Shown: piece after piece, positions 13,004 to 29,342 of the stretch
How the letters are laid out: every line of letters starts with the position of its first letter
How positions within the stretch are numbered: the first letter of the stretch is position 1
Source of the DNA: Bacteroidales bacterium
Lineage (GTDB): Bacteria > Bacteroidota > Bacteroidia > Bacteroidales > F082
Assembly: GCA_017394865.1 (NCBI GenBank)
Contig: JAFPWT010000003.1
Span: 1-41,784 of the forward strand
Reading direction: 5' to 3'
DNA: 41,784 bases
The notes under the pieces: generated by a model
What the model was told of the DNA's origin: nothing
Database searches by the model: none
The model's input: only the letters and a program-made list of their open reading frames with translations
Translations under genes and position numbers: made by a program

Positions 13004-14295
13004 TGAAACGTCCCGTTTTGAATATCGTCACCCTCGGGTGCTCCAAAAACAAAGTGGATTCGGAGCATCTGGCTGCACTCTTGGAACATCGCTATGTGAT
13101 CCGTCATGATGACGAACGTCTTTCCGATGTCGTGATCATTAATACTTGTGGCTTTATCGGCGATGCGCAAGAAGAGTCTGTTGACACCATCCTGGAATAT
13201 GCGGAGTTGCGAAAAAAAGGTAAGATCAAGAAACTGTATGTGACCGGTTGCCTTTCGCAACGTTTTAAGAAAGACCTTCAAAAGGAGATTCACGAAGTGG
13301 ATGGTTTCTACGGTGTGGAAAGCGTCAATTTGATTGCGGCCGACATTCTTAAAGAGGAACCTCAACCCCAATACTGTAGCCGACGTGTGCTTTCCACTCC
13401 CAAGCATTATGCTTATCTGAAGATCTCGGAAGGCTGCAACCGCCGTTGTGCTTTCTGTGCGATCCCTTTAATCCGTGGGTCTCACGCCTCGGTGCCAATT
13501 TCGGATCTTATCGAGGAGGCAAAGACACTTGCTCGGCAAGGGGTGAAGGAATTGATACTGATTGCTCAAGACCTTACATATTACGGCCACGATATTGATG
13601 GCAAATCCCATATCGTTGAGTTGGTGAAGGCGCTTTGCGATATCGATGGCTTCGAGTGGATCCGCCTGCACTACGGTTATCCTCTGGGTTTCCCCGATGA
13701 GTTGCTCGACCTGATGCGCGAGAATCCGAAAATCTGTCATTATATCGACCTACCTTTGCAGCACATCAGTACACATATTTTAAAAGATATGCGCCGCGGT
13801 GTGGATCGTGAACAAACCATTGGCTTTGTTAAGAATGTCAGAAAGCATGTACCAGACATCGCTTTCCGCACTACTTTTATTGTAGGCTTCCCTGGTGAGA
13901 CGGAGGAGGATTTTGAGGAGTTATGCCAGTTTATCAAGGACATGCGTTTCGAGAGGGCAGGGGTGTTCGCCTTCTCGCCCGAAGAAGGCACTCCAGCATA
14001 TGAACTTCCCGATGACGTGCCTGACGAGGTTAAACAGGAGCGTGTCGACCGATTGATGGAGATCCAACAAAATATTTCATTGGAGATCAATGAACAAAGG
14101 GTTGGAAAGACGGAGAAAGTTTTGATTGATCGTCTGGAAGGTGAGTATTTTGTAGGCCGTTCGCAATACGATTCTCCAGAGGTGGATGATGAGATTCTGA
14201 TTGCTTCCGACGAAGAACTTCAAATCGGGGAGTTCTATCAAGTGAGGATCACCCAAGCGGATTTTTTTGATTGTTTTGGGGAAGTAATAAAATAA
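13003..14295 (+). CDS. rimO: Ribosomal protein S12 methylthiotransferase RimO
   Basis: A 430-residue radical SAM enzyme that adds a methylthio group to the conserved Asp of ribosomal protein S12. The UPF0004 N-terminal domain has three cluster cysteines (TLGCSKNKVDSE, NTCGFI, VTGCLSQR). The radical SAM motif is CNRRCAFC, with IPLIRGSHASVP, and a TRAM domain closes the protein (RVGKTEKVLIDRLEGEYFVG). IPLIRG rather than IPxxRG-type MiaB variants and the overall length favour RimO over MiaB. The ATG at 13003 overlaps the ftsY stop; an in-frame GTG one codon earlier is possible. Confidence 0.95.
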   Translation: MKRPVLNIVTLGCSKNKVDSEHLAALLEHRYVIRHDDERLSDVVIINTCGFIGDAQEESVDTILEYAELRKKGKIKKLYVTGCLSQRFKKDLQKEIHEVDGFYGVESVNLIAADILKEEPQPQYCSRRVLSTPKHYAYLKISEGCNRRCAFCAIPLIRGSHASVPISDLIEEAKTLARQGVKELILIAQDLTYYGHDIDGKSHIVELVKALCDIDGFEWIRLHYGYPLGFPDELLDLMRENPKICHYIDLPLQHISTHILKDMRRGVDREQTIGFVKNVRKHVPDIAFRTTFIVGFPGETEEDFEELCQFIKDMRFERAGVFAFSPEEGTPAYELPDDVPDEVKQERVDRLMEIQQNISLEINEQRVGKTEKVLIDRLEGEYFVGRSQYDSPEVDDEILIASDEELQIGEFYQVRITQADFFDCFGEVIK

Positions 14296-14300
14296 AATGG

Positions 14301-14308
14301 TACCTTTG
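14301..14308 (+). promoter_or_regulatory. Bacteroidota -7 promoter element for the DUF368 gene
   Basis: TACCTTTG followed by C, 32 bases before the ATG at 14340, with TTTG near 14275-14278. Confidence 0.7.
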
Positions 14309-14339
14309 CTCGTTTATTTGGTGGATTCCGATATAAGCC

Positions 14340-15293
14340 ATGAGGTTTTGGAAAGGTCTTATAGTGTTTATAAAGGGCATCCTGGTAGGGGCTGTTAACG
14401 TAGTACCTATTTCCGGTGGTGCCATCTCATTGATTTTGGGAATCTATGAGCGTTTCATCAATGCCATCAGAGCGCTCACTCCAAAGAACTTCAAGTATTT
14501 GTTTCGTGGCGAGGTGCATGAATTCTCCCGAAGGACCGACATTCGATTCTTTTTTACACTAGTTGTTGGTATTGTGGCGGGAATGGTGCTGACCTCCGTT
14601 TTTCTCAAAAAAGTGCTTCATACGCAGGAGGTGTATACTTATGCGTTTTTCTTTGGGTTGATCGTCGTTTCGGCGTTTGATGTGATGCGAGGGATCGGGA
14701 AGATAAACTTGAAGAATATCATCATCTTGCTCATTGGTTTAGGTGGCTCTTTGTCCATATCACTGCTCTCGAATCCTGAGGGTAATAATAGTTTCATGTA
14801 TTTGTTCTTCTGTGGTATGGTGGGGGCGCTGGGTATGGTAGTCCCTGGCGTTTCCGGCTCCCATTTGATGATGCTGATGGGCAAATACGAACAGATCATA
14901 GGAGCGGTTTCCGACTTGACTCGGTTATCCACGTTCAAGTCGGGCTTTATGGTGCTTCTCCCGTTTTTGCTGGGATGTCTTGTCACGATCGTGAGTTTCT
15001 CTTATCTGCTCTCGTGGTTGATGCGTCAATACCGCAATGAAACGCTGTCGGCCTTGTCGGGATTCATGCTGGGCAGTCTTCCCGTAATCTATCCATGGGT
15101 GGATGAAAAAACCAATAATCCTGTTCTTCCTCCGATGGATACTAGCTTTTTGGTGGCTATATTGATCGCAGTGTTGGGTGGATTAACGGTATATCTGATA
15201 GGGTGGTTGGCCCGACGTGAGGAGAGAAAGATTGCTCGGCGCAAGGAGCGTCAGGAGCGAAGAGAGCGGAGAAAACACGCTAATCTTTCATAA
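14340..15293 (+). CDS. DUF368 membrane protein (undecaprenyl-phosphate transporter family)
   Basis: A 317-residue polytopic inner-membrane protein with about eight hydrophobic helices. Family marks are KGILVGAVNVVPISGGAISLILGIYE near the start and the repeated GMVVPGVSGSHLMMLMGKYE at about residue 165; the paired PxxSGG/PGxSG loops are typical of DUF368. Members (PopT) have been shown to return undecaprenyl phosphate across the membrane for cell-wall synthesis. The C-terminal tail is strongly basic (ARREERKIARRKERQERRERRK). The 3' end overlaps the convergent hydrogenase-like gene by 14 bases. Confidence 0.9.
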   Translation: MRFWKGLIVFIKGILVGAVNVVPISGGAISLILGIYERFINAIRALTPKNFKYLFRGEVHEFSRRTDIRFFFTLVVGIVAGMVLTSVFLKKVLHTQEVYTYAFFFGLIVVSAFDVMRGIGKINLKNIIILLIGLGGSLSISLLSNPEGNNSFMYLFFCGMVGALGMVVPGVSGSHLMMLMGKYEQIIGAVSDLTRLSTFKSGFMVLLPFLLGCLVTIVSFSYLLSWLMRQYRNETLSALSGFMLGSLPVIYPWVDEKTNNPVLPPMDTSFLVAILIAVLGGLTVYLIGWLARREERKIARRKERQERRERRKHANLS

Positions 15294-16557
15294 AAATACA
15301 GTCTGACATTTGGGCTTCGCCCATGACGATGTCGTGGGCAAGGGCGTCGCAGGTAGGTGCGCCGCACACGCTACAGTCCTTTTGGGGTAGCTTGGCCCGG
15401 ATTTGGTTGATGCGCTGCATCTTTTCCAGCGCCTGGGTGATGTCTTCATCGAGGACAAGCATCGAGCGGGGCCTGATGTCGTTCACCATTACGTTGCGGG
15501 CTAGGAAGTTGCGTTCGGCTTCGATTTCGTGATCCTTGGTCTGCTCTCCATTGCGCTCGCGTTCGGCAATCTTGCGGGCACGGGCGAAGATACGTTCGCA
15601 CATCATGAAGCGGTTGTCGCAGGTGAGGATGCCGCCGGGACAGCTCTGGTCGCAGGCGCGCAGTTCCAGGAAATCCACGTTTTCCACTTCGTCGTTCTCC
15701 ACTTTTTCGAGGAACTCGATCACGTTGTGGATCTCGTCGATGGAGTAGGAGTGTTTGGCGTTGGAGAGACGACGCTCGCCGTTGGTGAGGGCAGTGAGCA
15801 CGCCGTCGGAAGAGATCTGCGACACAGGTAGTTTCTGCTCCTTGAAGCCTTTGCCTTGCTCTTTGATGCGCTTGAACACGCGGTTGTAGAGCGCATCCAT
15901 GTTGATCACGCCATCAACCAGCGACCTGTCTTCACCGACAGGGGTCTTCACGGCAGCGATCTTGGCAGCGCATGGCGTGATGTAGAAGATGCCGATGTCC
16001 TCGGCGTTCCAGTCTTCTTTCTCCAACTTGCGGCGGATGTACATGGCCGTTAGGTCAATGGGTGCCTTGATGGGGATGAGGTTCTCGGTTAAGCCGGGGA
16101 ACTTTACCTGGATGAGACGAACGATGGCGGGACAGTAGGTGGAGATGAGAGGACGGATATCGGGATGCTCAGCAGCGTACCGATTCTTGGCCTCCGTATA
16201 GATCGGCACGGTAGCTTCGGTTTCGATGATATAGGTAAAGCCTATCTCCTTGAGGATTTGGTAGATTCTCGACACGGTGATGTCGTTGGGGAATTGTCCC
16301 ATGAACACGGAAGGCACCAATGCCACGCGGCAGGCGTAGTTGAAGATGTTGTCGAAGTCATCCTGCTTGATGTAGATGGACTTGGTGGGGCAGACCTTGA
16401 AGCAGTTGCCGCAGTCGATGCAACGGTCGGGGTATAGTTTTGCTTTGCCATCACGTATCCTGAGGGCTTCGGTAGGGCATGTCCTCATGCAGTGGGAGCA
16501 CCCGATGCAGGTCTCTTCGTCAATGGTCAGCGCGTGAAAAAAAGGTACCTTTTCCAT
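15280..16557 (-). CDS. [FeFe]-hydrogenase-like iron-sulfur protein, probably sensory (HydS-like)
   Basis: A 425-residue protein. Residues 10-62 are a two-[4Fe-4S] ferredoxin domain (CIGCSHCMRTCP, CIDCGNCFKVCP). Residues ~80-320 are a hydrogenase large-subunit C-terminal domain with all four H-cluster cysteines: Cys142 (STYCPA), Cys196 (TPCAAK), Cys302 and Cys306 (RACDQSCPGG). Tyr141 replaces the proton-transfer cysteine of TSCCP. The C-terminal end holds C395-x2-C398-x4-C403-x16-C420, like the single-cluster FeS domain of CdhD/RnfB. Catalytically weak, putative sensory hydrogenases share the lost cysteine. Neighbours are GHKL ATPases, DRTGG and PHP proteins, as in clostridial hydrogenase clusters. 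Sensing H2 or redox state is inferred. Confidence 0.85.
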   Translation of the reverse strand: MEKVPFFHALTIDEETCIGCSHCMRTCPTEALRIRDGKAKLYPDRCIDCGNCFKVCPTKSIYIKQDDFDNIFNYACRVALVPSVFMGQFPNDITVSRIYQILKEIGFTYIIETEATVPIYTEAKNRYAAEHPDIRPLISTYCPAIVRLIQVKFPGLTENLIPIKAPIDLTAMYIRRKLEKEDWNAEDIGIFYITPCAAKIAAVKTPVGEDRSLVDGVINMDALYNRVFKRIKEQGKGFKEQKLPVSQISSDGVLTALTNGERRLSNAKHSYSIDEIHNVIEFLEKVENDEVENVDFLELRACDQSCPGGILTCDNRFMMCERIFARARKIAERERNGEQTKDHEIEAERNFLARNVMVNDIRPRSMLVLDEDITQALEKMQRINQIRAKLPQKDCSVCGAPTCDALAHDIVMGEAQMSDCIFMKD

Positions 16558-16576
16558 ATCTCTTGATTCTAAATTC

Positions 16577-16990
16577 TTAATTAAATTTTACTTCCATCTC
16601 GACGGTGGTGCCTACGCCCACGGTGGATTGGACGTCGAGGCGGTCGACGTTTTTGCGGATGTTGGGCAGACCCATGCCGGCGCCGAATCCCATGTTGCGG
16701 ACTTCGGGCGAGGCGGTGGAGTTGCCTTCCTGCATGGCCCATTCGATGTCGGGGATGCCCGGGCCTTTGTCAACGACCTTCACGATGATCTTGTCGGCTT
16801 CGATGTCGGCGTAGATCATGCCGCCGTAGGCGTGGGCGATGGCGTTGACTTCGGCTTCGTAAAGAGCCACGACGACCCGTTTCACGATCTGGGGGTTCAC
16901 GTTGAGCTGCTTCAAGGTCTTCTTGATGGAACTCGATGCGGCTCCGGCGTTCACAAAGTCCGCTTCAAATACTTGATATTCTAAGTGCAT
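16577..16990 (-). CDS. RsbW-like GHKL ATPase (anti-sigma-factor kinase fold)
   Basis: A 137-residue single-domain ATP-binding protein. The GHKL boxes are visible: N box EAEVNAIAHA, G1 box VDKGPGIPD, and G2 box GFGAGMGLPNI. No dimerisation/His-phosphotransfer domain is present, so it is closer to RsbW/SpoIIAB-type Ser/Thr kinases than to sensor histidine kinases. No anti-anti-sigma protein is recognised nearby. It lies 19 bases upstream of the hydrogenase-like gene and 23 downstream of a DRTGG gene, in one operon. A signalling role, passing a redox signal, is inferred from this setting. Confidence 0.88.
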   Translation of the reverse strand: MHLEYQVFEADFVNAGAASSSIKKTLKQLNVNPQIVKRVVVALYEAEVNAIAHAYGGMIYADIEADKIIVKVVDKGPGIPDIEWAMQEGNSTASPEVRNMGFGAGMGLPNIRKNVDRLDVQSTVGVGTTVEMEVKFN

Positions 16991-17013
16991 AGCGTTTCAT
17001 GTTGGTTTGACAT

Positions 17014-17358
17014 TTAGAAAATGGGCTGCATGCCCGCTTTGAAGAGCAGTCCGCAGGCCTTGAACATGGAGAAGTCACATTCCATGACCACCATGCCCTC
17101 GTCTTCGGCCTCTTCGATCATCTCCTCGGAGGCTTTCTTGCGGCGCACCAGGACGATGATGTCCAGATTGCCCATCTCGCAGGTGCGGATGGTTTGCATG
17201 TTGCACAGTCCGGTGAGGATCACGGGGTTGTAGTCACCCAAGGTGAGCACGTCGCTCATCAGGTCGGAGGCGAAGGCCGTTTCGTGTTCTTCGTTAAGGC
17301 GGTCATGTCCGCAGAGGACCTTGGCCTCCAGCAATTCGGCAATTTCTTTGAGAGTCAT
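17014..17358 (-). CDS. DRTGG domain protein (copy 2)
   Basis: A 114-residue protein that is a DRTGG domain with little else (KVLCGHDRLNEE near the start, ASDLMSDVLTLGD, IIVLVRRKKASEEMIEEAEDEG). DRTGG domains occur beside CBS and phosphotransacetylase domains and are thought to bind small ligands, though which is unknown. It is a paralogue of the protein encoded at 20701-21036, aligning through AxxxSDLxSDVxxxG. First gene of its operon, with TAACTTTG about 50 bases upstream. Confidence 0.83.
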   Translation of the reverse strand: MTLKEIAELLEAKVLCGHDRLNEEHETAFASDLMSDVLTLGDYNPVILTGLCNMQTIRTCEMGNLDIIVLVRRKKASEEMIEEAEDEGMVVMECDFSMFKACGLLFKAGMQPIF

Positions 17359-17407
17359 TTTATGTTGAGTTGTTTATTTGTTGAGTTGTTGAATTGTTTA
17401 GTTGCTA

Positions 17408-17415
17408 CAAAGTTA
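17408..17415 (-). promoter_or_regulatory. Bacteroidota -7 promoter element for the DRTGG-RsbW-HydS-like operon
   Basis: Minus-strand TAACTTTG, 50 bases before the ATG at 17358. The leader between them is a tract of TTGAGTTGTT-like repeats (17361-17403, plus strand). Confidence 0.6.
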
Positions 17416-17497
17416 ATCATTTTTCTGATAGGATGGACGATCGTGAGGTTTTTTGTGTGAAAATCTCCAAAGTTGTTTTTCCTTTCGGAATTCTTTG

Positions 17498-17505
17498 TAT
17501 ATTTG
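17498..17505 (+). promoter_or_regulatory. Bacteroidota -7 promoter element for the structured leader
   Basis: TATATTTG followed by C; TTG near 17473-17475 could serve as the -33 element. Transcription would start near 17510. Confidence 0.55.
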
Positions 17506-17550
17506 CCTCAGTTCTTTTGGCGGATTTTATGCTGCCGATATGATTAACAC

Positions 17551-17651
17551 GAAGCGTTATGCTCGTCTTGCTATCGGAAACGTAAGAATTTATTAGTTTT
17601 TTTACGACGTCCGATAGAAGAAGTGGTATATCAGTGCCACGCTTCTTTTTT
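17551..17651 (+). ncRNA. Predicted structured leader or small RNA with terminator
   Basis: Inverted repeats define a fold: CTATCGGA (17571-17578) pairs with TCCGATAG (17610-17617), extended by CGTAA (17581-17585) with TTACG (17602-17606). GAAG/GTGG (17617-17626) pairs with CCAC/CTTC (17637-17645) before six T, an intrinsic terminator. GAAGCGT (17551-17557) can instead pair with ACGCTTC (17639-17645), which would break the terminator. This is an attenuator-like arrangement upstream of the secreted protein gene, or a stand-alone RNA of about 140 bases. No known RNA family was recognised. Confidence 0.5.
17617..17651 (+). terminator. Rho-independent terminator upstream of 17717
   Basis: GAAG..GTGG arms (17617-17626) with CCAC.CTTC (17637-17645) and then T6. 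It lies in front of the secreted protein gene rather than after one. Confidence 0.6.
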
Positions 17652-17687
17652 GTATTATCCTTTGAGGTGCTGGAAAGGAAGAAAGGT

Positions 17688-17701
17688 TGCGCCCGACACG
17701 C
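17688..17701 (+). promoter_or_regulatory. Conserved leader motif TTGCGCCCGACACG (copy 1)
   Basis: The identical 14 bases occur on the minus strand at about 23934-23947, also just upstream of a secreted protein gene. In both, AGGGA follows four bases later and the ATG comes eight bases after GGGA's A. This alignment supports the ATG at 17717 as the start. Confidence 0.6.
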
Positions 17702-17716
17702 AGTAGGGAAAATGAG

Positions 17717-18550
17717 ATGGAGATGAAAAGGAATTACAGAATTCTTCTGATATGCATCGTGTTTCTTATGGCGCACCTATCTGCTTTTGCTCAGGATTTC
17801 CTATGGGTTTCGGGTGAAGGAAAACTGATAGATTTTGCACCAATGCCTATTTATGACAAACTGCCAAGTGTGATTCACCCAAAAGTGAAACCAAACACCA
17901 AGTCAATAAAGGTTGACAGGTATCTTTTGGTTAACAGGATGGGAGAATTACACCGTTGGGCGGATCGTGACGGACAGTATATCATGCATTACGACACTAC
18001 AGGAAAGCTTGTGCAGATACAAGGCTCACCAGATGACATACATGGCATCAACTTTATATACGATGGAGAAAGAGTTGTCGAGGTTGACGGCAATTATGCT
18101 TGCAGATACATATACGATGCAACTGGAGAGCTTAAGACGATGCATAATATGTATAACCATACATTCCATTACACCCTTGACAAAAAAAGGAATATCACAA
18201 GAATTGATGAGTACGATGGCTCAAAACTCATCCGTACTCACAACTATAGGTTCGACAAAAAAGGAAGAAAGGCAGAATACCATGCCGAGTATAGCATCTG
18301 GAAGTTTGACATTGTCCAGTACTTCAATGACGTTGGTGATGTGGCAACCATAATACGCTATGAAGAACGGAAAAGTGTGGACGGAAGTGTCAAATACATC
18401 CATAATGAATATCGGTTTGAGTATGGGCCGGATGGCAATCCGACAAAATGTGTCGAAATTGAGATTGGCGATGTAGCCGTTGAAACCAGAGGATATGAAT
18501 ACGAATACACTTATGAATTCTATCCGGCGAAAGAAAAGTTGGAAAGATAA
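17717..18550 (+). CDS. Secreted YD/RHS-like repeat protein of unknown function
   Basis: A 277-residue exported protein: a signal peptide (to about AFAQ at residue 25), then tyrosine-rich repeats such as YIMHYDTTGKLVQIQG, FIYDGERVVEVDGNY, YIYDATGELKTMHNMYN, YRFDKKGRKAEYH and FEYGPDGNPTKCVEI. The spacing and YxYDxxGxLxxI pattern resemble YD/RHS or wall-associated repeats, here without a toxin tip. The start is set by alignment with the leader of 23917. Base composition is more AT-rich than the hydrogenase genes around it, which suggests later insertion together with the MNT/HEPN pair. Function unknown. Confidence 0.78.
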   Translation: MEMKRNYRILLICIVFLMAHLSAFAQDFLWVSGEGKLIDFAPMPIYDKLPSVIHPKVKPNTKSIKVDRYLLVNRMGELHRWADRDGQYIMHYDTTGKLVQIQGSPDDIHGINFIYDGERVVEVDGNYACRYIYDATGELKTMHNMYNHTFHYTLDKKRNITRIDEYDGSKLIRTHNYRFDKKGRKAEYHAEYSIWKFDIVQYFNDVGDVATIIRYEERKSVDGSVKYIHNEYRFEYGPDGNPTKCVEIEIGDVAVETRGYEYEYTYEFYPAKEKLER

Positions 18551-18593
18551 ATCAAGAAATTAATGTATCGCAAATATTCGAAAGCAGGAATTG

Positions 18594-18989
18594 CTACTTT
18601 ATCAACCCTATCACTTTCTCGATAAAAGTTCCGGTCAAGGCAATTCGTGGAGCAGTGTCTTCTTCGGTGGCATAATAAGTGCAATTGTAATCGCTTTTTT
18701 CTCGCATAGTCTGGAGTTGAGAATAAAATGCGCCTTCTTCTTTTGATAGGATGCCGGACTTGACATAATACTGATGAAGCATCACCACAGCCCCTTGATG
18801 GGTGCCAACAGGATGCCCATCGTTAATTAGCAAAGCACTTACCGCATGAAATGCAGCATAATACAATCGATTGGCGATGTTGTCCCAAAGACCTGCCTGA
18901 CGTAGAACCTCAATTTCAGAGAAAGTCTTTCGGGCTTTATCAATTTCCAAGTTGACAATGAGTTTCCTTTCTTCACTGTTAATGCTCAT
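18594..18989 (-). CDS. HEPN domain protein (HepT-like partner of the MNT protein)
   Basis: A 131-residue all-helical HEPN protein of the PF05168 type: NRLYYAAFHAVSALLI in the N-terminal helices and MREKSDYN in the later helix. The canonical RNase motif R-x4-6-H is not in the later helix; the only R-x6-H is R41-H48 in the first helices, so ribonuclease activity is uncertain. Its ATG overlaps the stop of the MNT gene (ATGA, 18986-18989). MNT/HEPN pairs act as toxin-antitoxin systems in which MNT AMPylates HEPN in some cases; that is the likeliest role here. Convergent with the YD-repeat gene. Confidence 0.85.
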   Translation of the reverse strand: MSINSEERKLIVNLEIDKARKTFSEIEVLRQAGLWDNIANRLYYAAFHAVSALLINDGHPVGTHQGAVVMLHQYYVKSGILSKEEGAFYSQLQTMREKSDYNCTYYATEEDTAPRIALTGTFIEKVIGLIK

Positions 18990-19300
18990 ACCAATAAGAT
19001 TTTGTCTTGTTCAACGTTCTTGTAATAAGGCAAAAACTGTAACGCATCCCATTCTTCTTGTGAATAGGTCTGGACACTGAAGTATTCACCCAAATCAAAT
19101 CCAAGCTCCATGATGGGATAGGCGATATTCTGGAAATCCGATGTTTCTTGCGGGCGATTGAGCAGAATAAGCAAATCCCAATCAGAATCCTCACGGTAAT
19201 CTCCACGGGCGCGCGAACCATATAGCAATAGATGAGCGTCTTGGGGAAGAATTCGCCTGCCCAATTGCTGGATTTGATGAAGAATGTCCGTGTGACTCAT
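18986..19300 (-). CDS. Minimal nucleotidyltransferase (MntA-like antitoxin)
   Basis: A 104-residue protein with the nucleotidyltransferase signature GSRARGDYREDSDWDLLIL, that is GS followed by ten residues and D-x-D. Length and context fit the MNT antitoxins that transfer AMP to HEPN partners. It is first in a two-gene unit with the HEPN gene. A frame-shifted 80-codon alternative on the same strand (18979-19221) is a shadow. Its promoter region is nearly identical to that of pruA. Confidence 0.87.
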   Translation of the reverse strand: MSHTDILHQIQQLGRRILPQDAHLLLYGSRARGDYREDSDWDLLILLNRPQETSDFQNIAYPIMELGFDLGEYFSVQTYSQEEWDALQFLPYYKNVEQDKILLV

Positions 19301-19321
19301 GGTTGTTATTCAATTATACCG

Positions 19322-19329
19322 CAAAAATA
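19322..19329 (-). promoter_or_regulatory. Bacteroidota -7 promoter element for MNT/HEPN
   Basis: Minus-strand TATTTTTG followed by C, about 22 bases before the ATG at 19300. The 30 bases 19318-19347 nearly match 405-433 before pruA. Confidence 0.7.
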
Positions 19330-19368
19330 AACAAAATGGTTTTAATTCGCAAGAAGTGCTTACCTAAG

Positions 19369-19917
19369 TTAGTCGTTGTAGTTTATCTCCTTCAAATTCT
19401 CCTGTATCATTTCCTTTAAATACTTCATGATGTGAACATCGTTCATCGGCATGCCGTCGAGGGCTTCTTTGACTTCGTCGGTGTCGAAAACGAACTCACC
19501 GTCGTCGGTGATGTGGGTGTAGATGAAGTGGATGTCCTCGTGGGCAGCGAAGAGCATCACTAGTGAGCCTGCCAAATCGCCCATCGGGGGACGGTCGATG
19601 TGGTCGTGCTGGAACCAGAACTTCAGCACGGTGCCTTTGCCCACCTCGCTCTGGATGTCCATGCCACCGCCCATATTTTCAGTGTTCATTTTGATTAATG
19701 GCAGTCCCAATCCCACCTTACGGGTGGTACGTGAGGTGGTCCATGGGTCGGTCACCTTGGCCAGGAACTCGGGGCTCATGCCTTTGCCGTTGTCCTTGAT
19801 GGTGAAGGCGTAAATGTTTTCTTTGAGGCTGTCCTTGATGGTGAGCTCCACCAGAGTCGAGTTGGCCGCGGTAGAGTTTTCCATCAGGTCGTATACATGC
19901 ATGGATAATTCTTTCAT
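19369..19917 (-). CDS. GHKL ATP-binding protein (histidine-kinase-like ATPase domain)
   Basis: A 182-residue protein starting directly with a GHKL fold: N box HVYDLMENSTAAN, G1 box DNGKGM, ATP lid TDPWTTSRTTRKV and G2 box GLGLPLIK. No H-box dimerisation domain or membrane segment is present. The last ~75 residues (from about DRPPMGDLAGSL) form an extra domain of unknown role. It is the last gene of the DRTGG-PHP-ATPase operon, six bases after the PHP gene. Together with the RsbW-like protein at 16577 it makes two different ATPases in one module. Confidence 0.85.
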   Translation of the reverse strand: MKELSMHVYDLMENSTAANSTLVELTIKDSLKENIYAFTIKDNGKGMSPEFLAKVTDPWTTSRTTRKVGLGLPLIKMNTENMGGGMDIQSEVGKGTVLKFWFQHDHIDRPPMGDLAGSLVMLFAAHEDIHFIYTHITDDGEFVFDTDEVKEALDGMPMNDVHIMKYLKEMIQENLKEINYND

Positions 19918-19923
19918 AGTCGT

Positions 19924-20700
19924 TTATCCGTATAAAAGTTGCAGTTTTTCGTTGGGTTCAGTGTCGATGTAGCGTCCGTCTTCGCCGTGAAGGGTTTTGC
20001 GGAACTCATCGAAGGTCTTATTGTACATATGCAGCACGCAATGCACTTCGCCGATGATGTGGAGGAAGTGGGCGTCGCTGCTCTTGGTGAAGTTGAATTT
20101 CTTCAGGTAGGCGTATTTCTTCAGGAAGTCGGGCTTGGTGACGTGTTTGGAAATTTCGAGGGCGTCGGCTTTGATGTCGGGTGGGACGAAACCCAATTGG
20201 CTTACCAAACTGCTGGCGGGTTTGTTCACGTGGGCGGGGACAAACAGTCCACCGATTTCGTGAACCACGTCGTATAGTTGGTCCAAATCCGTGTCGAGCG
20301 CCGACCACAGCAGCCATTCCTCTTCGCCGATCACCTCTTCGTTTTCATCTACGATGAGCTGGTAACCGAACTTCTCTTCATCCAATGGGATGTGGGGGAG
20401 ATGCTCGTTGAGGAATTCCTGGAATTTGTCCAGCTGCTCATCGGTTTCGAAGTAGGCGAGGGCATGGGCTTCTTCCTGGGTGGTGATCTCCACACCGCCG
20501 ATGACGAGAAGGTCGTTTTCGCGCCCGATCTTCTGGGTTACCTTAACCTGTCTTGTCGTGTTGTGATCGCAGATGGCAATGACGTCGAGGTGCAGCTTCT
20601 TGGCTTGCTCCACGATGGCTGATGGACTCATATAGAGGTCGCCACACGGCGAGAGTACCGTGTGCATGTGTAAATCGGCTCTATATGCGTTAAGCTCCAT
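19924..20700 (-). CDS. PHP domain phosphoesterase
   Basis: A 258-residue PHP protein. The metal-binding positions are kept: DLHMHT (His-x-His), CDHNT, GGVEIT, PAHVNK and SSDAH near the C-terminus, as in the trinuclear metal site of PHP phosphoesterases related to histidinol-phosphatase and TrpH/YciV RNase-type nucleotidases. The substrate is unknown. The ATG abuts the stop of the DRTGG gene with no gap, and the GHKL gene follows six bases later. In clostridial genomes, as I recall, PHP, DRTGG and ATPase genes sit with [FeFe]-hydrogenase genes, which matches this setting. Confidence 0.88.
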   Translation of the reverse strand: MELNAYRADLHMHTVLSPCGDLYMSPSAIVEQAKKLHLDVIAICDHNTTRQVKVTQKIGRENDLLVIGGVEITTQEEAHALAYFETDEQLDKFQEFLNEHLPHIPLDEEKFGYQLIVDENEEVIGEEEWLLWSALDTDLDQLYDVVHEIGGLFVPAHVNKPASSLVSQLGFVPPDIKADALEISKHVTKPDFLKKYAYLKKFNFTKSSDAHFLHIIGEVHCVLHMYNKTFDEFRKTLHGEDGRYIDTEPNEKLQLLYG

Positions 20701-21036
20701 TTATTCGTGAAGGAGGTTGTACACCAGGCCGGCAATTTCGTAGGTGGGCAGGTTGGTTTGCAGGATAGGCAGGTCCTCCTCGTTGCTCTGCTCGATGGTC
20801 TCGTCGTTGGGCACGAGGTTCTTCACCAGGATGATGCAGGCCATTTCTTTCAGCGAGGCCACGGCCATCACGTTTTTGTGGGTCTGGAGGGTAATCCAGA
20901 TGTTGCCTTCCATGGCGTTGCCCATCACATCGCTGAGCAGGTCCGATATATAGCATCCGTCAATTTCGCGGTCCAGGCCATTGGCACCGGAGAGGACTTT
21001 CAGTCCGAGTTTGTCAACTAACTCTTGTACTTTCAT
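20701..21036 (-). CDS. DRTGG domain protein (copy 1)
   Basis: A 111-residue DRTGG protein (MKVQELVDKLGLKVLSG, then YISDLLSDVMGNAMEG, ACIILVKNLVPNDETIEQS, YEIAGLVYNLL). It is a paralogue of the protein at 17014-17358. The ATG at 21036 is preferred over an upstream frame from 21090, which would include the promoter and end of the S8 peptidase gene. First gene of an operon with PHP and GHKL proteins. A small-molecule-sensing role is possible but unproven. Confidence 0.84.
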   Translation of the reverse strand: MKVQELVDKLGLKVLSGANGLDREIDGCYISDLLSDVMGNAMEGNIWITLQTHKNVMAVASLKEMACIILVKNLVPNDETIEQSNEEDLPILQTNLPTYEIAGLVYNLLHE

Positions 21037-21060
21037 GTTAAATGATTTAAAATTGGTAGG

Positions 21061-21068
21061 CAAATATA
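21061..21068 (-). promoter_or_regulatory. Bacteroidota -7 promoter element for the DRTGG-PHP-ATPase operon
   Basis: Minus-strand TATATTTG followed by C, 25 bases before the ATG at 21036. It begins 19 bases after the end of the S8 peptidase gene, so the -33 region lies inside that gene. Confidence 0.7.
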
Positions 21069-21086
21069 CTAAATTAAAAAGAATTG

Positions 21087-23336
21087 TCAAGGCATAATCT
21101 CGAACTCGATGCCAAAGCTCCAGGGTGATGGCTGGTTGGCAGGATTGCCGATCAGGCCGTCTGGCTTGGTGATGACATCCGAGAGACGATAGCGGGCAAA
21201 CACGCCCAAGTTGATGGCGTTCTCGAAGGTGTAGCTGATCCTGGTGGTAGCACCGTATTCGAAGAGATTCATCGCTTTGCAGCGTCTGTAATAGGTCACG
21301 ACATTCTCACTATAAGGTTGCGGCTCAACTGGCTGGAGGTCCATGTCTTTCCAAACCGTTTTGTCGGTGGTTCTCACACGTCGTGTGATGTTGATGCCAC
21401 CGTAGGCGCCGAGATCCCAGTTGATGCCCCACATGCGGAACACGATGCGCTCGAGTATCTCGCCACGTAGCTGCATTTGTCGCATTTGTACCTTATGGCC
21501 GGCAACATTAAGGTCGTTCACTCCAAGACTGTTTTTAGCCACAAACCGGTTGAAGTCGAGGCTGTAGCCCAAACCGAATTGATAGGTCTTGCCGTAGAAA
21601 TGACGGCGACCGAAGGCGACATGGCGGTTGAAGCCATTCCATGGGCCGGAAGCCAAGTTGTAATCGAATTGTAAGAAAGAGGTTTCTTGCCAGCCTTCCT
21701 CTTTGATTTCTGGGAAGGTTCCGTCTTGGCCTCTGAGTCGCCAGTTGTTGGCTTCGAGGGTGATCTCCTCGCCAGTGCCGGAGATGGGACAGGAGTCGCA
21801 GAAGCCATTGTAGCTCACGGTTAGTTTTTTGCCTTTGCCGAAGTCCTTGTTTTTCAGTTTGATGCCTTTGGCGTCGGGTAACGTTTTGTAGTAACCAAGC
21901 AGCACGCCGTCGGCCCCTTCCACACTAATGAACACATCCTGATTTTTGATCACTTTCATGACGTCGATGCGCACGCCGTCTTTTTCCTCTACGAAGTTAA
22001 AAGAGCGCTCGGTGGGTTTCAGGTCGCCTGTGAAGTAAGCTGCTTGGGGCACACCGTATCCGTAGGCGTAGTCAAAGTAGGGGTAGAGGTCGGCTGATTT
22101 CTCTATCTCGGCTTTCATCTGAAGGGCGGTGAGGTCGCGGCGGGTCTGCCATGCGCAGGCACAGAAGCCTGCCGTTAGGGGGCTTGAGAAAGAAGTGCCG
22201 TAGGCGTCGGTGAACTTGCCGTTGCTGGGGTTGGCCACCTTGGCGTGACCGAAGGCCACCACGTTGGGTTTCTTTCTTTTGTCGGCAGAGGGACCATAAG
22301 AGCTGAAATAGATATGGTCATAAAGGGTCAGATCGTCGTTGATGCCACCCACGCAGAGCACGTTCTCGGCATCAGAAGGCGTGATGATGGTCATCCAGTG
22401 GACGTCGTCGCCTTCGTTTCCAGCTGAGTTGCACACTAGGATGCCTTTCTCCACGGCTTTGTTGGCGGCTTTGGCTACGTAGGAGGTGCCGTCCATATCC
22501 TTGGTCCAGTGGCGGTCTTTGCCATAGCCTAGAGAACTATTAATGATGTCGACACCGTTTTTGTCGGCCCATTCGGCGGCTTGTGCCCACCACACCTCTT
22601 CCATAAAGGGCTCGGGATCGACTTCGGTGCGGGCCAACAGAAACTCCGCTCCAGTGGCTAGACCCAGTTTCTGCCCTTGGTCGTCAATGCCGGCGATGCA
22701 GCTTAGCACCATGGTGCCATGGGTGCTCCAGCCGTAGACATCCTCTTTCTTTTTTGGGAAGTTGTAGGTCTTGATGATCTGATGGTTGTCGCGCAGGTGC
22801 TTGAAAGCCGGATGCGTGTCCACCTTTGGGAATCCGCCATCAAAAACGGCGATGCGCAAGCCTTTTCCGTCGATGCCTTTATCGATGAAATACTGTCCCC
22901 CGAAACGTTTCAGTTGGTCGGTGAGGACGTCGCTGTTGTCGAGTGCATCAAGGTTATCTTCAATATTAAAGGAAGCGGTGGTTCCGTTGGATTCTATTTC
23001 CTGAACTTTTGCAACGAATGGTAACTGTTCGATCATCAAGGCGTTGTCGTCGGTGGCGAGGATTCCCACGGCGTTGAGCCAGCGTGACTCGCCAAAGACC
23101 TCGATGGAGTAGCTTCCAACGGTGTTGACATAGGTGTCATTCAAAGGGAAGTTGCTGATGTCGTAGAGGTCGGCACCGCAACGTTGGTAACGCTCGATAG
23201 CCTTAATATCAAAATAGGTATAAGGATCAAACTGGGTATTGCTTTTATCCGTAAAGAACACCCAGTAGCTTTTGTTTTGTGCCATCCCCGCTACTGCGAG
23301 CAGGACAATGATGGCGAGCAAGAAATTTTTTCTCAT
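21087..23336 (-). CDS. Secreted S8 (subtilisin) family serine peptidase with barrel-like C-terminus
   Basis: A 749-residue exported protease. Signal peptide at 1-19 (MRKNFLLAIIVLLAVAGMA). The subtilase domain holds Asp166 (AVFDGGF), His206 (STHGTMV), the oxyanion Asn307 (NSAGNEG) and Ser382 (YGTSFSSP), so it should be active. Residues ~20-130 resemble a prodomain. From about residue 590 to the end the sequence alternates in amphipathic strands (FGLGYSLDFNRF, ISYTFENAINLGVFARYRL) and ends in FGIEFEIMP, a pattern of outer-membrane beta-strands with a terminal aromatic-rich strand, not a type IX sorting domain. Located 17 bases after the internally duplicated secreted protein gene, probably in one operon. 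Confidence 0.88.
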   Translation of the reverse strand: MRKNFLLAIIVLLAVAGMAQNKSYWVFFTDKSNTQFDPYTYFDIKAIERYQRCGADLYDISNFPLNDTYVNTVGSYSIEVFGESRWLNAVGILATDDNALMIEQLPFVAKVQEIESNGTTASFNIEDNLDALDNSDVLTDQLKRFGGQYFIDKGIDGKGLRIAVFDGGFPKVDTHPAFKHLRDNHQIIKTYNFPKKKEDVYGWSTHGTMVLSCIAGIDDQGQKLGLATGAEFLLARTEVDPEPFMEEVWWAQAAEWADKNGVDIINSSLGYGKDRHWTKDMDGTSYVAKAANKAVEKGILVCNSAGNEGDDVHWMTIITPSDAENVLCVGGINDDLTLYDHIYFSSYGPSADKRKKPNVVAFGHAKVANPSNGKFTDAYGTSFSSPLTAGFCACAWQTRRDLTALQMKAEIEKSADLYPYFDYAYGYGVPQAAYFTGDLKPTERSFNFVEEKDGVRIDVMKVIKNQDVFISVEGADGVLLGYYKTLPDAKGIKLKNKDFGKGKKLTVSYNGFCDSCPISGTGEEITLEANNWRLRGQDGTFPEIKEEGWQETSFLQFDYNLASGPWNGFNRHVAFGRRHFYGKTYQFGLGYSLDFNRFVAKNSLGVNDLNVAGHKVQMRQMQLRGEILERIVFRMWGINWDLGAYGGINITRRVRTTDKTVWKDMDLQPVEPQPYSENVVTYYRRCKAMNLFEYGATTRISYTFENAINLGVFARYRLSDVITKPDGLIGNPANQPSPWSFGIEFEIMP

Positions 23337-23353
23337 TGTTGGCTGGAATCCAA

Positions 23354-23917
23354 TTAATCGCAGAGAAGGTCGGCTTTATTAGACAGTTTGTTTCCTATGC
23401 GATCACTCTTTTTGGTGAAGGCATCTGATTCATCGTCGGTAAAAGTAGAGCCGTCGATGTTTTCTGTTTGGTCCAAGAAACGTCCTACAGCGTCGTTGAG
23501 TTCATCGCAGCTCTTTGCGCTGTTGATGGCCGACTCCAGTTCATCCAAGGCCGACATTACCTTCTCGTAGTCGCTGGCAGAGTCGTCATCTGTCTCACAT
23601 CCCCAATACTGTTGTAAAAGTTTGACTCTTTCGTCGATTCGGTTGGCTTGCTCGGAAATCAGATCGCTTTCTTCGTCGGTCATCGTCTCAGCTTCGTCGT
23701 ATTCATCCTCGACAGAGGCAAGTAGGCTGAAGAAAAACATTAATTCTGCAGTTTCCAGATCGTCGCAGGATTCGGCGCTTTTAACGTCATTTTCATACTT
23801 GTCGAGGACTTCCTTAAAGTCCAGATACTGTTTGGTGTGAGGACCGCCTGTGTTGCCGGCGAAGGCTGCCACGGTCATCATGACGATGGCAAGTGCAGTG
23901 AGCATTACTTTTTTCAT
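23354..23917 (-). CDS. Secreted helical protein with two internal repeats, unknown function
   Basis: A 187-residue exported protein with a signal peptide (to about AAFA, residue 19). The mature part is acidic and helical and contains two related copies: the first has KSAESCDDLETA then TMTDEESDLISEQANRIDERV and a Cys near its end; the second has NSAKSCDELNDA then TFTDDESDAFTKKSDRIGNKL and again a Cys. Each copy could form one disulfide. The ATG at 23917 follows the conserved leader motif; the longer frame starting in the motif is rejected. The S8 peptidase follows 17 bases later. I recognise no family. Confidence 0.75.
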   Translation of the reverse strand: MKKVMLTALAIVMMTVAAFAGNTGGPHTKQYLDFKEVLDKYENDVKSAESCDDLETAELMFFFSLLASVEDEYDEAETMTDEESDLISEQANRIDERVKLLQQYWGCETDDDSASDYEKVMSALDELESAINSAKSCDELNDAVGRFLDQTENIDGSTFTDDESDAFTKKSDRIGNKLSNKADLLCD

Positions 23918-23933
23918 TTCGATATCCCTGGTT

Positions 23934-23947
23934 CGTGTCGGGCGCAA
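23934..23947 (-). promoter_or_regulatory. Conserved leader motif TTGCGCCCGACACG (copy 2)
   Basis: Minus-strand copy of the 14-base motif also found at 17688-17701, lying between the promoter at 23958-23965 and the ATG at 23917, followed by AGGGA at the same spacing. Confidence 0.6.
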
Positions 23948-23957
23948 CTTTTAGGTG

Positions 23958-23965
23958 CAAAGATA
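23958..23965 (-). promoter_or_regulatory. Bacteroidota -7 promoter element for the repeat protein-S8 peptidase operon
   Basis: Minus-strand TATCTTTG followed by C, about 40 bases before the ATG at 23917. Confidence 0.75.
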
Positions 23966-24027
23966 AGAAAAAACATGGAAAGCACAAGTGAAAGAGTAAA
24001 GGGTTTGAGGGATTGTTGATATTTTTC

Positions 24028-24035
24028 TATCTTTG
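24028..24035 (+). promoter_or_regulatory. Bacteroidota -7 promoter element for queH
   Basis: TATCTTTG followed by C, ending only four bases before the GTG at 24040, which implies a nearly or fully leaderless message. Confidence 0.7.
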
Positions 24036-24039
24036 CGGT

Positions 24040-24612
24040 GTGAAAAAACCATTCGTCATAGAGGCTCCCGGAGGTGCAACAAAAGTGTTGCTCCATACCT
24101 GCTGTGCGCCGTGTTCGTCGGCGATCATTGAGTGTTTGATGAAGCATGGGATTACGCCCACCATATATTATTGTAATCCGAATATCTATCCACTGGAAGA
24201 GTATGAGATCCGAAAAAACGAATGCTCACGCTATGCGAAATCGCTAGGATTGGAGATCGTTGATGAGGATTATGACCACGAAAGATGGCTTCAGGAGATG
24301 AAAGGTTTGGAGCATGAACCGGAGCGAGGGTCAAGATGCCTGAAATGCTTTAAATATCGGCTGTTGAGGACGGCTCAATATGCACAGGAACATGGTTTCG
24401 CGGTGATTACCACCACGCTGGCCTCGAGTCGTTGGAAAAGCCTTGAGCAGATCGAGGAAGCAGGCCGTTTTGCTGAATCGCAGGTTCCTGATGTGACTTT
24501 CTGGGCACAAAACTGGCGCAAAGGAGGCCTGAGCGAGCGCAGAATCCAGATTATCAAGGAATACGGGTTCTACAACCAACAATACTGCGGCTGCGAGTTT
24601 TCGATGCGATAA
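24040..24612 (+). CDS. queH: Epoxyqueuosine reductase QueH
   Basis: A 190-residue protein matching QueH, the cobalamin-independent epoxyqueuosine reductase that completes queuosine in tRNA. Key motif VLLHTCCAPCSS gives three cysteines near residues 21-25, and RCLKC and QYCGCEF supply further cluster or active-site cysteines. Other marks are YYCNPNIYP, EEY-IRKNE, FAVITTTLASSRWK and the C-terminal GGLSERRIQIIKEYGFYNQQYCGC. The start is probably GTG at 24040 (reads KKPFVIEAPGG); a TTG at 24013 lies upstream of the promoter element and is rejected. A strong terminator follows at 24672-24707. Confidence 0.92.
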   Translation: MKKPFVIEAPGGATKVLLHTCCAPCSSAIIECLMKHGITPTIYYCNPNIYPLEEYEIRKNECSRYAKSLGLEIVDEDYDHERWLQEMKGLEHEPERGSRCLKCFKYRLLRTAQYAQEHGFAVITTTLASSRWKSLEQIEEAGRFAESQVPDVTFWAQNWRKGGLSERRIQIIKEYGFYNQQYCGCEFSMR

Positions 24613-24632
24613 ACACCTTTTTTCGATGTGCT

Positions 24633-24653
24633 AAATTAGAATCATTCTAATTT
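24633..24653. promoter_or_regulatory. Perfect 21-base palindrome, possible operator
   Basis: AAATTAGAAT and ATTCTAATTT flank a single central C. No T-run follows, so it is not a simple terminator. It lies about 55 bases before the -7 element of the hydrogenase operon, a position suited to a regulator-binding site. It could also be the basal part of the queH 3' end. Confidence 0.5.
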
Positions 24654-24671
24654 ACGATTACTACTTAAAAT

Positions 24672-24707
24672 AGCTTCTGTTTCGTTGAAATAGAAGCTTT
24701 TATTTTT
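24672..24707 (+). terminator. Rho-independent terminator of queH
   Basis: Twelve-pair stem: AGCTTCTGTTTC (24672-24683) with GAAATAGAAGCT (24687-24698), one G-T pair and a three-base loop, followed by TTTATTTTTT. Its 3' half and loop also contain the -33 element of the hydrogenase promoter. Confidence 0.8.
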
Positions 24708-24715
24708 TACCTTTG
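24708..24715 (+). promoter_or_regulatory. Bacteroidota -7 promoter element for the [FeFe] hydrogenase operon
   Basis: TACCTTTG followed by C, with TTG at 24685-24687 exactly 20 bases upstream. The leader of about 75 bases ends in AAGGAGA six bases before the ATG. Confidence 0.78.
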
Positions 24716-24796
24716 CACCGGTTTTCTGAACATTATTCTAAATAAAATAATAAAGAAACAAATCCAAGTAATAACCCCTAAAAAAGGAGAATTAAA

Positions 24797-25189
24797 ATGG
24801 CAAAAGTTAAGTCTTTAGCAGAACTGAAAGCAATGAGAGAAAAGCTTTCGAACAACCTCGACATCCGCGAGAAGAGCAACGACCCCGACTCCCTCGTGCA
24901 GATTAAGGTTGCCATGGCCACTTGCGGTATCGCCGCTGGTGCCAAACAAGTGATGGAACATCTGATGGAGAAGGCCGATGAGCTGAAACTCAGCATCGTC
25001 TTCACCCAGACCGGTTGCATGGGCTACTGCCACGCTGAACCGACCATCGAAGTGAAGTGCCCTGGCCGCGACCCGATCGTCTTCGGTCATGTCGACAACA
25101 CCAGAGCTGACGAAATCCTCACCAAGTACGTCATGAACAACGAGATGGTCGAGGGTGTCATCCCCGTGAACTACGAAACAATTGGTTAA
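24797..25189 (+). CDS. Thioredoxin-like [2Fe-2S] ferredoxin subunit of the hydrogenase
   Basis: A 130-residue protein with a thioredoxin-like [2Fe-2S] fold. Cluster cysteines are Cys43 (MATCGIAAGA) and the pair in TQTGCMGYCHAEP, plus a cysteine in EVKCPG, as in the small 2Fe-2S protein that precedes NuoF-like subunits in clostridial hydrogenase operons. It probably relays electrons within or to the Hyd complex. A clear Shine-Dalgarno (AAGGAGA) precedes the ATG. It is the first gene of the operon and lies 21 bases before hydB. Confidence 0.87.
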   Translation: MAKVKSLAELKAMREKLSNNLDIREKSNDPDSLVQIKVAMATCGIAAGAKQVMEHLMEKADELKLSIVFTQTGCMGYCHAEPTIEVKCPGRDPIVFGHVDNTRADEILTKYVMNNEMVEGVIPVNYETIG

Positions 25190-25210
25190 TCTTTAATTGG
25201 AGGAAATTAT

Positions 25211-27025: not shown

Positions 27026-27045
27026 AATAGAGGAGGAGAAAAAGT

Positions 27046-28830: not shown

Positions 28831-28865
28831 TTCAATAACCAGTAAATAATAGAAAGGAAATAAAT

Positions 28866-29342
28866 ATGGCAGTTATTAAATTATCAGAAGCTAAGGTTAA
28901 CTTCATCAAGGACGTCTGCAAGTCGTTTGGCAACAAGCCAGGTGAGGTCATCAATGTGCTGCACAAGGTTCAGGGCGAGTATGGCTATCTGCCTGCTGAA
29001 GTCCAGGAGCTGGTGGCTAAGGAACTGGGTATCCCGGTATCCAGAGTGTATGGCATCGTGTCGTTCTATTCGTTCTTCACCATGACGCCCAAGGGTGAGC
29101 ACCCGATCAGCGTTTGCTTGGGTACCGCCTGCTACGTGCGTGGTGCCGAGAAGGTGTTGGACGAGTTGAAGCGTCAGCTGGGCATCGGTGTCGGCGAGGT
29201 GACTCCCGACGGCAAGTTCTCACTGAACTGCCTCCGCTGCGTCGGCGCCTGCGGTCTGGCCCCCGTCATCGAAGTCGGTGAGAAGGTCTACGGCCGTATG
29301 ACCCCCGATCGCGTCAAGGACGTGCTCGCTGAATACAAATGA
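28866..29342 (+). CDS. hydC: [FeFe] hydrogenase subunit HydC (NuoE-like)
   Basis: A 158-residue thioredoxin-like [2Fe-2S] subunit of the NuoE family. Cluster cysteines lie in SVCLGTACYVRGA and LNCLRCVGACGLAPV, the normal C-x4-C ... C-x3-C pattern. It carries electrons between the flavin subunit and HydA. Here it comes last, whereas in many clostridial operons the NuoE gene is first. AAAGGAAA precedes the ATG. A strong terminator follows at 29364-29397. Confidence 0.95.
   Translation: MAVIKLSEAKVNFIKDVCKSFGNKPGEVINVLHKVQGEYGYLPAEVQELVAKELGIPVSRVYGIVSFYSFFTMTPKGEHPISVCLGTACYVRGAEKVLDELKRQLGIGVGEVTPDGKFSLNCLRCVGACGLAPVIEVGEKVYGRMTPDRVKDVLAEYK

Follow-up and report, generated by a model that had tools for sequence, protein, structure and literature searches.

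A HydABC-linked gene set in Bacteroidales with a group D-type [FeFe] hydrogenase, two DRTGG proteins, two GHKL ATPases and a PHP-family phosphoesterase

The window analysed here, a stretch of 41,784 nucleotides of the Bacteroidales contig JAFPWT010000003.1 (contig C8 of a 2.08 Mb genome that is 73% complete), carries six minus-strand genes near a complete operon for the [FeFe] hydrogenase HydABC. The six genes encode a HydS-like hydrogenase, an RsbW-like ATPase, a second GHKL ATPase (GHKL2), two stand-alone DRTGG proteins (DRTGG1 and DRTGG2) and a PHP-family phosphoesterase (PHP), and across Bacteroidales they are co-conserved with one another and with HydABC. A first-pass annotation of the window had read them as a hydrogenase-linked signalling module; its observation is confirmed and its interpretation is supported in part, with HydS recast as a dispensable input of group D type. 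Judged from sequence, the set has more the look of a HydABC accessory for which HydS provides one of the inputs.

The genes form two packed trios. DRTGG1 (20701-21036; Pfam DRTGG, PF07085, 32.9 bits against a cut-off of 25.2, with an additional match to the HPr kinase N-terminal family), PHP (19924-20700; Pfam PHP, 32.3 bits, cut-off 26.4) and GHKL2 (19369-19917; Pfam HATPase_c, with a C-terminal extension of about 80 residues) run from 21036 to 19369 with intergenic gaps of 0 and 6 bases, and DRTGG2 (17014-17358; Pfam DRTGG at 20.0 bits, under the 25.2 cut-off), the RsbW/SpoIIAB-like GHKL kinase-type ATPase, hereafter RsbW (16577-16990; Pfam HATPase_c_2), and HydS (15280-16557; Pfam Fe_hyd_lg_C, Fer4 and FeS) run from 17358 to 15280 with gaps of 23 and 19 bases. 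The earlier coordinates of the six genes and their proximity to HydABC stand, and the reading as one functional unit tied to HydABC is supported; the six genes are, however, not contiguous in the window, where an insertion splits the trios. The HydABC operon, complete and on the plus strand at 24797-29342, starts 3.8 kb from the six-gene set and comprises a separate [2Fe-2S] ferredoxin-like protein that we name HydX (24797-25189), the NuoF-like HydB (25211-27025), HydA, an [FeFe] hydrogenase of group A6 (27046-28830; 893 bits, cut-off 765), and the NuoE-like HydC (28866-29342). As annotated at first pass, none of the six proteins has a receiver, output or DNA-binding family over the Pfam cut-off, and the same is true of DHp, PAS and STAS. 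A search of the window's own genome with PF07085 returned DRTGG1 as the sole match.

Co-occurrence and gene order

The survey covered 246 other Bacteroidales genomes of at least 90% completeness, with presence scored at E ≤ 1e-40 for the HydS A1 profile, at E ≤ 1e-20 for PHP and GHKL2, and at E ≤ 1e-100 for HydA6. HydS was found in 78 genomes, PHP in 80, GHKL2 in 85 (a count that takes in weak or partial matches in G521, 90 bits, G466, 147 bits, and G441, partial) and HydA6 in 160; when all 247 genomes were considered, HydA6 was over the curated cut-off in 157 and at E ≤ 1e-100 in 161. HydS and PHP occurred together in 75 of the 246 genomes, and a HydA6 match was present in 77 of the 78 genomes with HydS and in 79 of the 80 with PHP, in agreement with the proposed tie to HydABC, while HydS is missing from 83 and PHP from 81 of the 160 HydA6 genomes. 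A Fisher test of HydS against HydA6 gave p = 5e-17, uncorrected for kinship among the genomes. In a class-wide sample of 247 genomes including that of the window, matches of HydS strength were found in two others (G158 and G279), both Bacteroidales.

Gene order was compared in stretches covering 74 of the 78 HydS genomes (three genomes of the window's genus and a 3.7-kb contig were not included), with the count restricted to the ten families searched. In 69 of the 74 loci DRTGG2-RsbW immediately precedes HydS, and in 64 the first genes after HydS are DRTGG1-PHP; the exceptions are in part contig ends and in part real. In 49 loci, HydX, HydB and HydA come further along on that strand. The full row DRTGG2-RsbW-HydS-DRTGG1-PHP-GHKL2-HydX-HydB-HydA-HydC is unbroken in 46 of the 74 loci and its first six genes in 59; among the misses are contig ends, a PHP::GHKL2 fusion in L234 and loci with separated trios (L250, L256, L276, L279 and L281). 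The window's genus has the trios in reversed order and, where visible, HydABC on the opposite strand. Chance co-occurrence or a scattering of the members, for which the annotation had proposed a gene-neighbourhood survey, was not found in Bacteroidales. As a control, 15 stretches with HydA6-type operons from genomes lacking both HydS and PHP held no DRTGG, RsbW, PHP or GHKL2 genes at the working cut-offs; the lone exception was L307, where the GHKL2 profile gave a match of 30-35 bits. No additional conserved family (open reading frames of at least 100 codons) recurred in more than 9 of the 78 neighbourhoods; four families reached 8 or 9, and, judged from the starts of their sequences, these resemble a piece of a SpoIIE-type phosphatase, TruA, a HydS of group C and, in 8 loci, a response regulator.

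Several loci hold further hydrogenase genes. In 24 of the 74 HydS loci, a second, different HydA (below 700 bits to the HydA of the window) lies upstream of HydS on either strand, mostly accompanied by its own HydC and HydB. In G158 and G459 (family f27), PF02906 matches three proteins per genome, including HydS and HydA6; both genomes carry the module, yet HydF is not over the cut-off in either, nor is HydG in G158. Group C-like [FeFe] hydrogenase genes lie near other HydABC-type operons in HydS-less genomes (L302, L303, L307 and L315), and the proteins of L303 and L315 contain a PAS domain, which was not found in that of L302.

Outside Bacteroidales, a clostridial counterpart, as the annotation had suggested, was found in a Subdoligranulum record (L154; Clostridia, plasmid-labelled), in which DRTGG2, RsbW, HydS, DRTGG1 and PHP share a strand and HydC-GHKL2-HydX-HydB-HydA is encoded on the opposite one. 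A human-faecal, bacteriophage-labelled record (L317) also carries the set, as DRTGG2-RsbW-HydS-DRTGG1-PHP followed by HydC-GHKL2-HydX-HydB-HydA on a single strand, i.e. the ten-gene row of Bacteroidales except that HydC is shifted ahead of GHKL2, and a further record of the same kind (L318) holds HydC-GHKL2-HydX-HydB-HydA. Since the same set occurs in Bacteroidales and in a Clostridia record, the system is putatively portable. Among the best 80 of 541 relatives, the titles name Bacteroidales, Bacteroidia, Bacteroidetes, Lentimicrobiaceae, Candidatus Limimorpha or Onthomorpha, and many of these carriers are rumen or gut bins. The records MT835800.1 (L317), MT835590.1 (L318), OY725842.1 (L154) and NZ_OY725779.1 (L155), labelled bacteriophage or plasmid, resemble bacterial chromosome, with hydrogenase operons and, in L155, gyrA; a search of viral contigs with RsbW found no relative.

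HydS and its five partners

Conservation was counted over rows that remained after a length limit was applied and sequences at least 85% identical to a kept row were removed (88 of 173 for HydS, 73 of 147 for PHP, 73 of 146 for GHKL2, 79 of 175 for RsbW, 76 of 145 for DRTGG1 and 92 of 170 for DRTGG2). In HydS, the H-cluster cysteines C142, C196, C302 and C306 and the C-terminal Cx2Cx4Cx16C motif (C395, C398, C403 and C420) are present in 88 of 88 rows, and each of the eight cysteines of the two N-terminal [4Fe-4S] motifs is kept in 86 to 88; the window protein has the FeS domain and no PAS domain by Pfam. The proton-transfer cysteine position, C299, is occupied by Phe in 80 rows, by Tyr in 7 (the residue found in the window) and by Ala in one. 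At M353 there is Thr in 84 rows, Ser in 3 and Ala in 1, and at M497 there is Arg in 84 of the 88. E261 (86/88), E298 (88/88) and D274 (86/88) correspond, by equal spacing and not by alignment, to E252, E289 and D265 of TamHydS, the residues proposed to form the proton path of group D (PMC10407848, available text). The view of HydS as catalytically altered therefore stands in so far as the proton-transfer cysteine is Tyr in the window, and requires revision in so far as all four H-cluster cysteines are kept, a pattern that fits group D.

TamHydS of Thermoanaerobacter mathranii is a putative sensory [FeFe] hydrogenase of group D (M2e) and, in the available text of the papers that describe it (PMC8163306, PMC10407848, PMC13104023), it shares with HydS the lack of a PAS domain, the two N-terminal [4Fe-4S] motifs, the C-terminal Cx2Cx4Cx16C, the absence of Cys at the C299 position, a hydroxyl residue at the M353 position, the Glu/Glu/Asp spacing and the proximity to a bifurcating HydABC. 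The two differ at C299, where TamHydS has Ala, the usual residue of groups C and D in that literature, whereas 87 of the 88 rows here have Phe or Tyr, and at M497, where TamHydS has Leu and 84 of the 88 rows have Arg; DRTGG and PHP genes, present here, are unmentioned in the portions of the TamHydS literature consulted. In a tree without TamHydS among its rows, and for which the program issued a long-branch warning, ten HydS rows (including L154, L317, L288 and L289) formed a clade of their own (100/100), separate from that of four group A rows (100/100) and from five rows labelled C (93/88). The group C proteins (TmHydS, R. albus HydS and HfsB) are likewise putative sensors of H2 or redox state whose genes lie close to those of other hydrogenases, and in the R. 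albus record a SpoIIE-family phosphatase gene follows the HydS-type gene; unlike HydS, however, group C has a PAS domain. On these features, HydS fits a group D [FeFe] hydrogenase of the TamHydS class and not simply a damaged enzyme, a class that is already known, with a variant pocket carrying Phe/Tyr and Arg. G036 (99% complete) has HydF and HydG over the cut-off, no HydA6, and HydS as its single PF02906 match, so that if HydF and HydG serve an H-cluster protein there, HydS is the only possible client. The retention of both maturases with HydS as the sole H-cluster protein indirectly disfavours a dead H-domain.

The active-site residues of the partners are conserved as well. E45 and N49 of RsbW, present in 79 of 79 rows, fall on the catalytic Glu and Asn of the SpoIIAB N-box in an alignment with 1til, and SpoIIAB is the nearest solved structure. 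GHKL2 keeps D10 and N14 in 72 of 72 rows and D42, G44, G46, G69 and G71 in 73 of 73; its model (pLDDT 87.5) matches the folds of histidine-kinase catalytic domains, MutL, gyrase, GRP94, BCKDK and PDK, of which the last two are presumably serine kinases. In PHP, the metal-site residues H11, H13, D45, H46, E71, H79, H157, D209 and H211 are kept in all rows with letters at these positions, in line with the intact metal site annotated at first pass; below the cut-off the protein matches nucleotide-phosphatase and nuclease families, and its named solved relatives include nucleases and a DNA polymerase PHP domain.

In the DRTGG proteins, D32 and S35 are invariant (76 of 76 rows in DRTGG1 and 92 of 92 in DRTGG2) and S31 nearly so (71 of 76 and 91 of 92). 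The AlphaFold2 model of DRTGG2 (mean pLDDT 95.3) has the DRTGG fold, with matches to AF1212 (2ioj, TMq 0.80), the DRTGG region of CBS pyrophosphatase and HPr kinase (further scores, 3l31 TMq 0.75 and 1ko7 TMq 0.62). The segment S31-S35, part of the motif S31-D32-L-M-S35-D36, lies in this model between the strand at 27-30 and the short helix at 34-37, or at the helix start. Also invariant in DRTGG2 are Q55, R58, T59, R72 and K74; in a 16-row alignment, the only invariant polar residues common to both paralogues are S31, D32, S35, D36 and T49. The fold is shared with AF1212, with the DRTGG region of CBS pyrophosphatase and with the N-terminal domain of HPr kinase; unlike those domains, the proteins here are a free-standing paralogous pair with GHKL neighbours and an S-D-L-x-S-D motif.

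In G344 and G410 DRTGG2 is naturally fused to RsbW (DRTGG2::RsbW), and G470 has a PHP::GHKL2 fusion, which points to DRTGG2/RsbW and PHP/GHKL2 as partners; DRTGG1 and GHKL2 remain neighbours in G354, G513 and G466, which have neither PHP nor HydS. Four genomes (G311, G363, G411 and G414), representing three genera and three families, have an operon DRTGG2-RsbW-DRTGG1-PHP-GHKL2 from which HydS has been lost between RsbW and DRTGG1, with no HydS match above 120 bits elsewhere in the genome. HydS is still present in G490, of the genus of G311 and G411, and in G316 and G491, of the family of G414; because these relatives keep it, the comparison supports at least two losses of HydS. The key active-site residues of the five partners are intact in all four HydS-less genomes; other conserved positions differ in L292 and L294, both of which have Tyr in place of RsbW H53, and in L294 also at RsbW S91, DRTGG2 S31, T59 and M62, DRTGG1 Q51 and GHKL2 D114. 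Since these operons keep the other five genes, HydS appears dispensable to them; it looks like one exchangeable input, with the DRTGG/GHKL pairs as the core. A group C HydS gene (L315, with PAS) adjoins the G363 operon, and similar-length weak matches occur in HydS-bearing genomes such as G490, so that no replacement of the lost HydS is claimed.

Three HydS genomes lack PHP: G436, where the locus meets a contig edge, G344 and G410. The latter two encode a divergent HydS (~294 bits), the fused DRTGG2::RsbW, a DRTGG1 gene and NuoE/NuoF-type genes downstream, and the stretches L288 and L289, which have this arrangement, contain no HydA match. In G410, and in the stretch L288, a molybdopterin-oxidoreductase-type gene and genes that appear Nfn-like by eye come after these.

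A possible phospho-switch and its alternatives

We assign a probability of about 0.42 to the reading that the set is a post-translational phospho-switch on HydABC, in which HydS would read H2 or redox, two GHKL/DRTGG pairs would relay the signal and PHP would reset them. What this reading builds on is observed: gene content, gene order, co-occurrence, fusions, conserved active-site residues and the DRTGG fold. Under the scheme, HydS, with a functional H-cluster, would sense H2 or the redox state of ferredoxin and signal to the RsbW-like GHKL kinase by contact; RsbW would be paired with DRTGG2, and GHKL2 with DRTGG1, as kinases with their switch-protein substrates. The invariant Ser35 (or Ser31) would be the likely phosphate acceptor, and PHP would act as the phosphatase that resets the DRTGG proteins. 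The phospho-state of DRTGG would then set the activity of the NADH-linked bifurcating HydABC through proteins and not through transcription, most likely at HydX/HydB, whose genes usually have that of GHKL2 beside them. A possible precedent is KdpD, for which the available text reports serine-kinase activity and, in addition, post-translational control of its pump (PMC11018627).

The scheme resembles the known partner-switching modules, in which SpoIIAB/RsbW is combined with STAS and PP2C proteins. Shared with these are an RsbW-type GHKL protein that has Glu and Asn in its N-box, a partner protein of small size and a phosphatase-type gene; however, the set has no STAS, sigma factor or PP2C, and has DRTGG and PHP and two GHKL proteins instead, such that DRTGG would take the role of STAS and PHP that of PP2C. 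That this amounts to a new type of bacterial phospho-switch, with a group D hydrogenase as input and tuning HydABC, seems doubtful to us at present. No DRTGG or PHP partner of a hydrogenase is described in the available text of PMC6288185, PMC9431212, PMC11406978, PMC9304861, PMC12578642, PMC8924675, PMC11837493 and PMC3492117, and within the open-access literature searched no description was found of the six-gene wiring, the fusions or the HydS-less operons. If the switch does act on HydABC, it would provide a handle on fermentative H2 turnover, and the conserved partners, fusions and HydS-less operons are its named, testable components.

A number of observations weigh against a phospho-switch on HydABC. 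Biochemistry for any of the five partners was not found in the portions of the literature consulted. S35 could be a ligand-site or structural residue, and the invariant Q55-to-K74 set of DRTGG2 would also suit an anionic ligand; GHKL2 has Asp at the position of the RsbW Glu, and the named solved relatives of PHP are not protein phosphatases. The other genes do not require HydS, and no PHP or GHKL2 match is present in the genomes of G344 and G410. Furthermore, G036 has all six genes and no HydA, and in P. distasonis L155 the 10 kb around the six genes contain no HydABC; the switch must therefore have at least one target besides HydABC.

The main rival is a ligand switch, in which DRTGG would bind a nucleotide or another anionic ligand, PHP would hydrolyse it, and the GHKL proteins would serve as ATP-gated clamps coupling the ligand level to HydABC or HydS. 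We regard it as less likely than the phospho-switch. In its favour are the invariant Arg/Lys/Gln/Thr residues of DRTGG2, the fold kinship with the DRTGG domain of CBS pyrophosphatase and the N-terminal domain of HPr kinase, and the matches of PHP to nucleotide-phosphatase and nuclease families (below the cut-off) and to solved nucleases. However, the invariant polar residues shared by the paralogues in the 16-row alignment are confined to S31, D32, S35, D36 and T49, and no row of RsbW lacks the N-box residues. Distinctly less probable is that the ATPases with DRTGG and PHP build, load or protect HydABC (or HydS) as assembly or repair factors and do not regulate it. The operon linkage with HydABC, the persistence of the partners without HydS and the matches of GHKL2 to folds of the MutL, gyrase and Hsp90 types would agree with such a role, whereas the 83 and 81 HydA6 genomes that retain HydABC without HydS or PHP, respectively, speak against it.

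It is improbable that HydS is a slow metabolic hydrogenase and that the other genes regulate HydS and not HydABC: TamHydS turns over H2 at a low rate in both directions (PMC8163306, available text) and the group D proton-path residues are conserved here, but the other five genes survive in the four HydS-less genomes. Least probable of all, in our view, is that RsbW is a true anti-sigma factor and that control is transcriptional, by way of a sigma factor or STAS protein that is not linked to the set. SpoIIAB is indeed the closest solved structure to RsbW; however, RsbW scores 64.2 bits against the 135-bit cut-off of the spIIAB model and likewise falls short of the RsbW-model cut-offs. A linked sigma factor or STAS antagonist is not among the families found in at least 8 of the 78 neighbourhoods, as judged from sequence starts, and the recurring families reach at most 9 of the 78 loci, with the response-regulator-like one in 8; unlinked partners were not searched. 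An assignment of RsbW as an anti-sigma factor of the SpoIIAB/RsbW kind, below curated cut-offs and with no linked partner (unlinked targets were outside the search), was accordingly rejected.

The insertion between the trios and neighbouring genes

The DNA between GHKL2 and DRTGG2 in the window, which lies outside the module, holds a minus-strand pair recognised by family matches, an MNT nucleotidyltransferase (18986-19300) and a HEPN protein (18594-18989), and a plus-strand open reading frame (17687-18550) with no family over the cut-off. Of 20 stretches from the same genus with longer flanks, 18 hold the six genes, and two (L056 and L060) hold the DRTGG1 trio only. The gap between the trios is at most ~230 bases in 15 of the 18 and 1.6 to 3.2 kb in the other three (L044, L048 and L055); none of the 20 contains an MNT or HEPN match. 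The junction carries other DNA at L044:11619-13260, L055:10966-14154 and L048:10863-13099, by eye including an ATPase-like open reading frame in L044 and two open reading frames in L055, and is possibly an insertion hot spot. No repeats of at least 40 bases were detected around the insertion in window positions 14000-25000. A BLAST match in L048 and L055 was dropped, as it sits ~200 bases upstream of their DRTGG2 genes. A defence reading was also set aside; the PADLOC candidate models hit MNT (PDC-S09, best 53 bits) and not HEPN.

Near HydABC, matches below curated cut-offs point to a protein of flavodiiron type (31395-32588) and to a flavin reductase whose tail is rubrerythrin-like (32642-33313).

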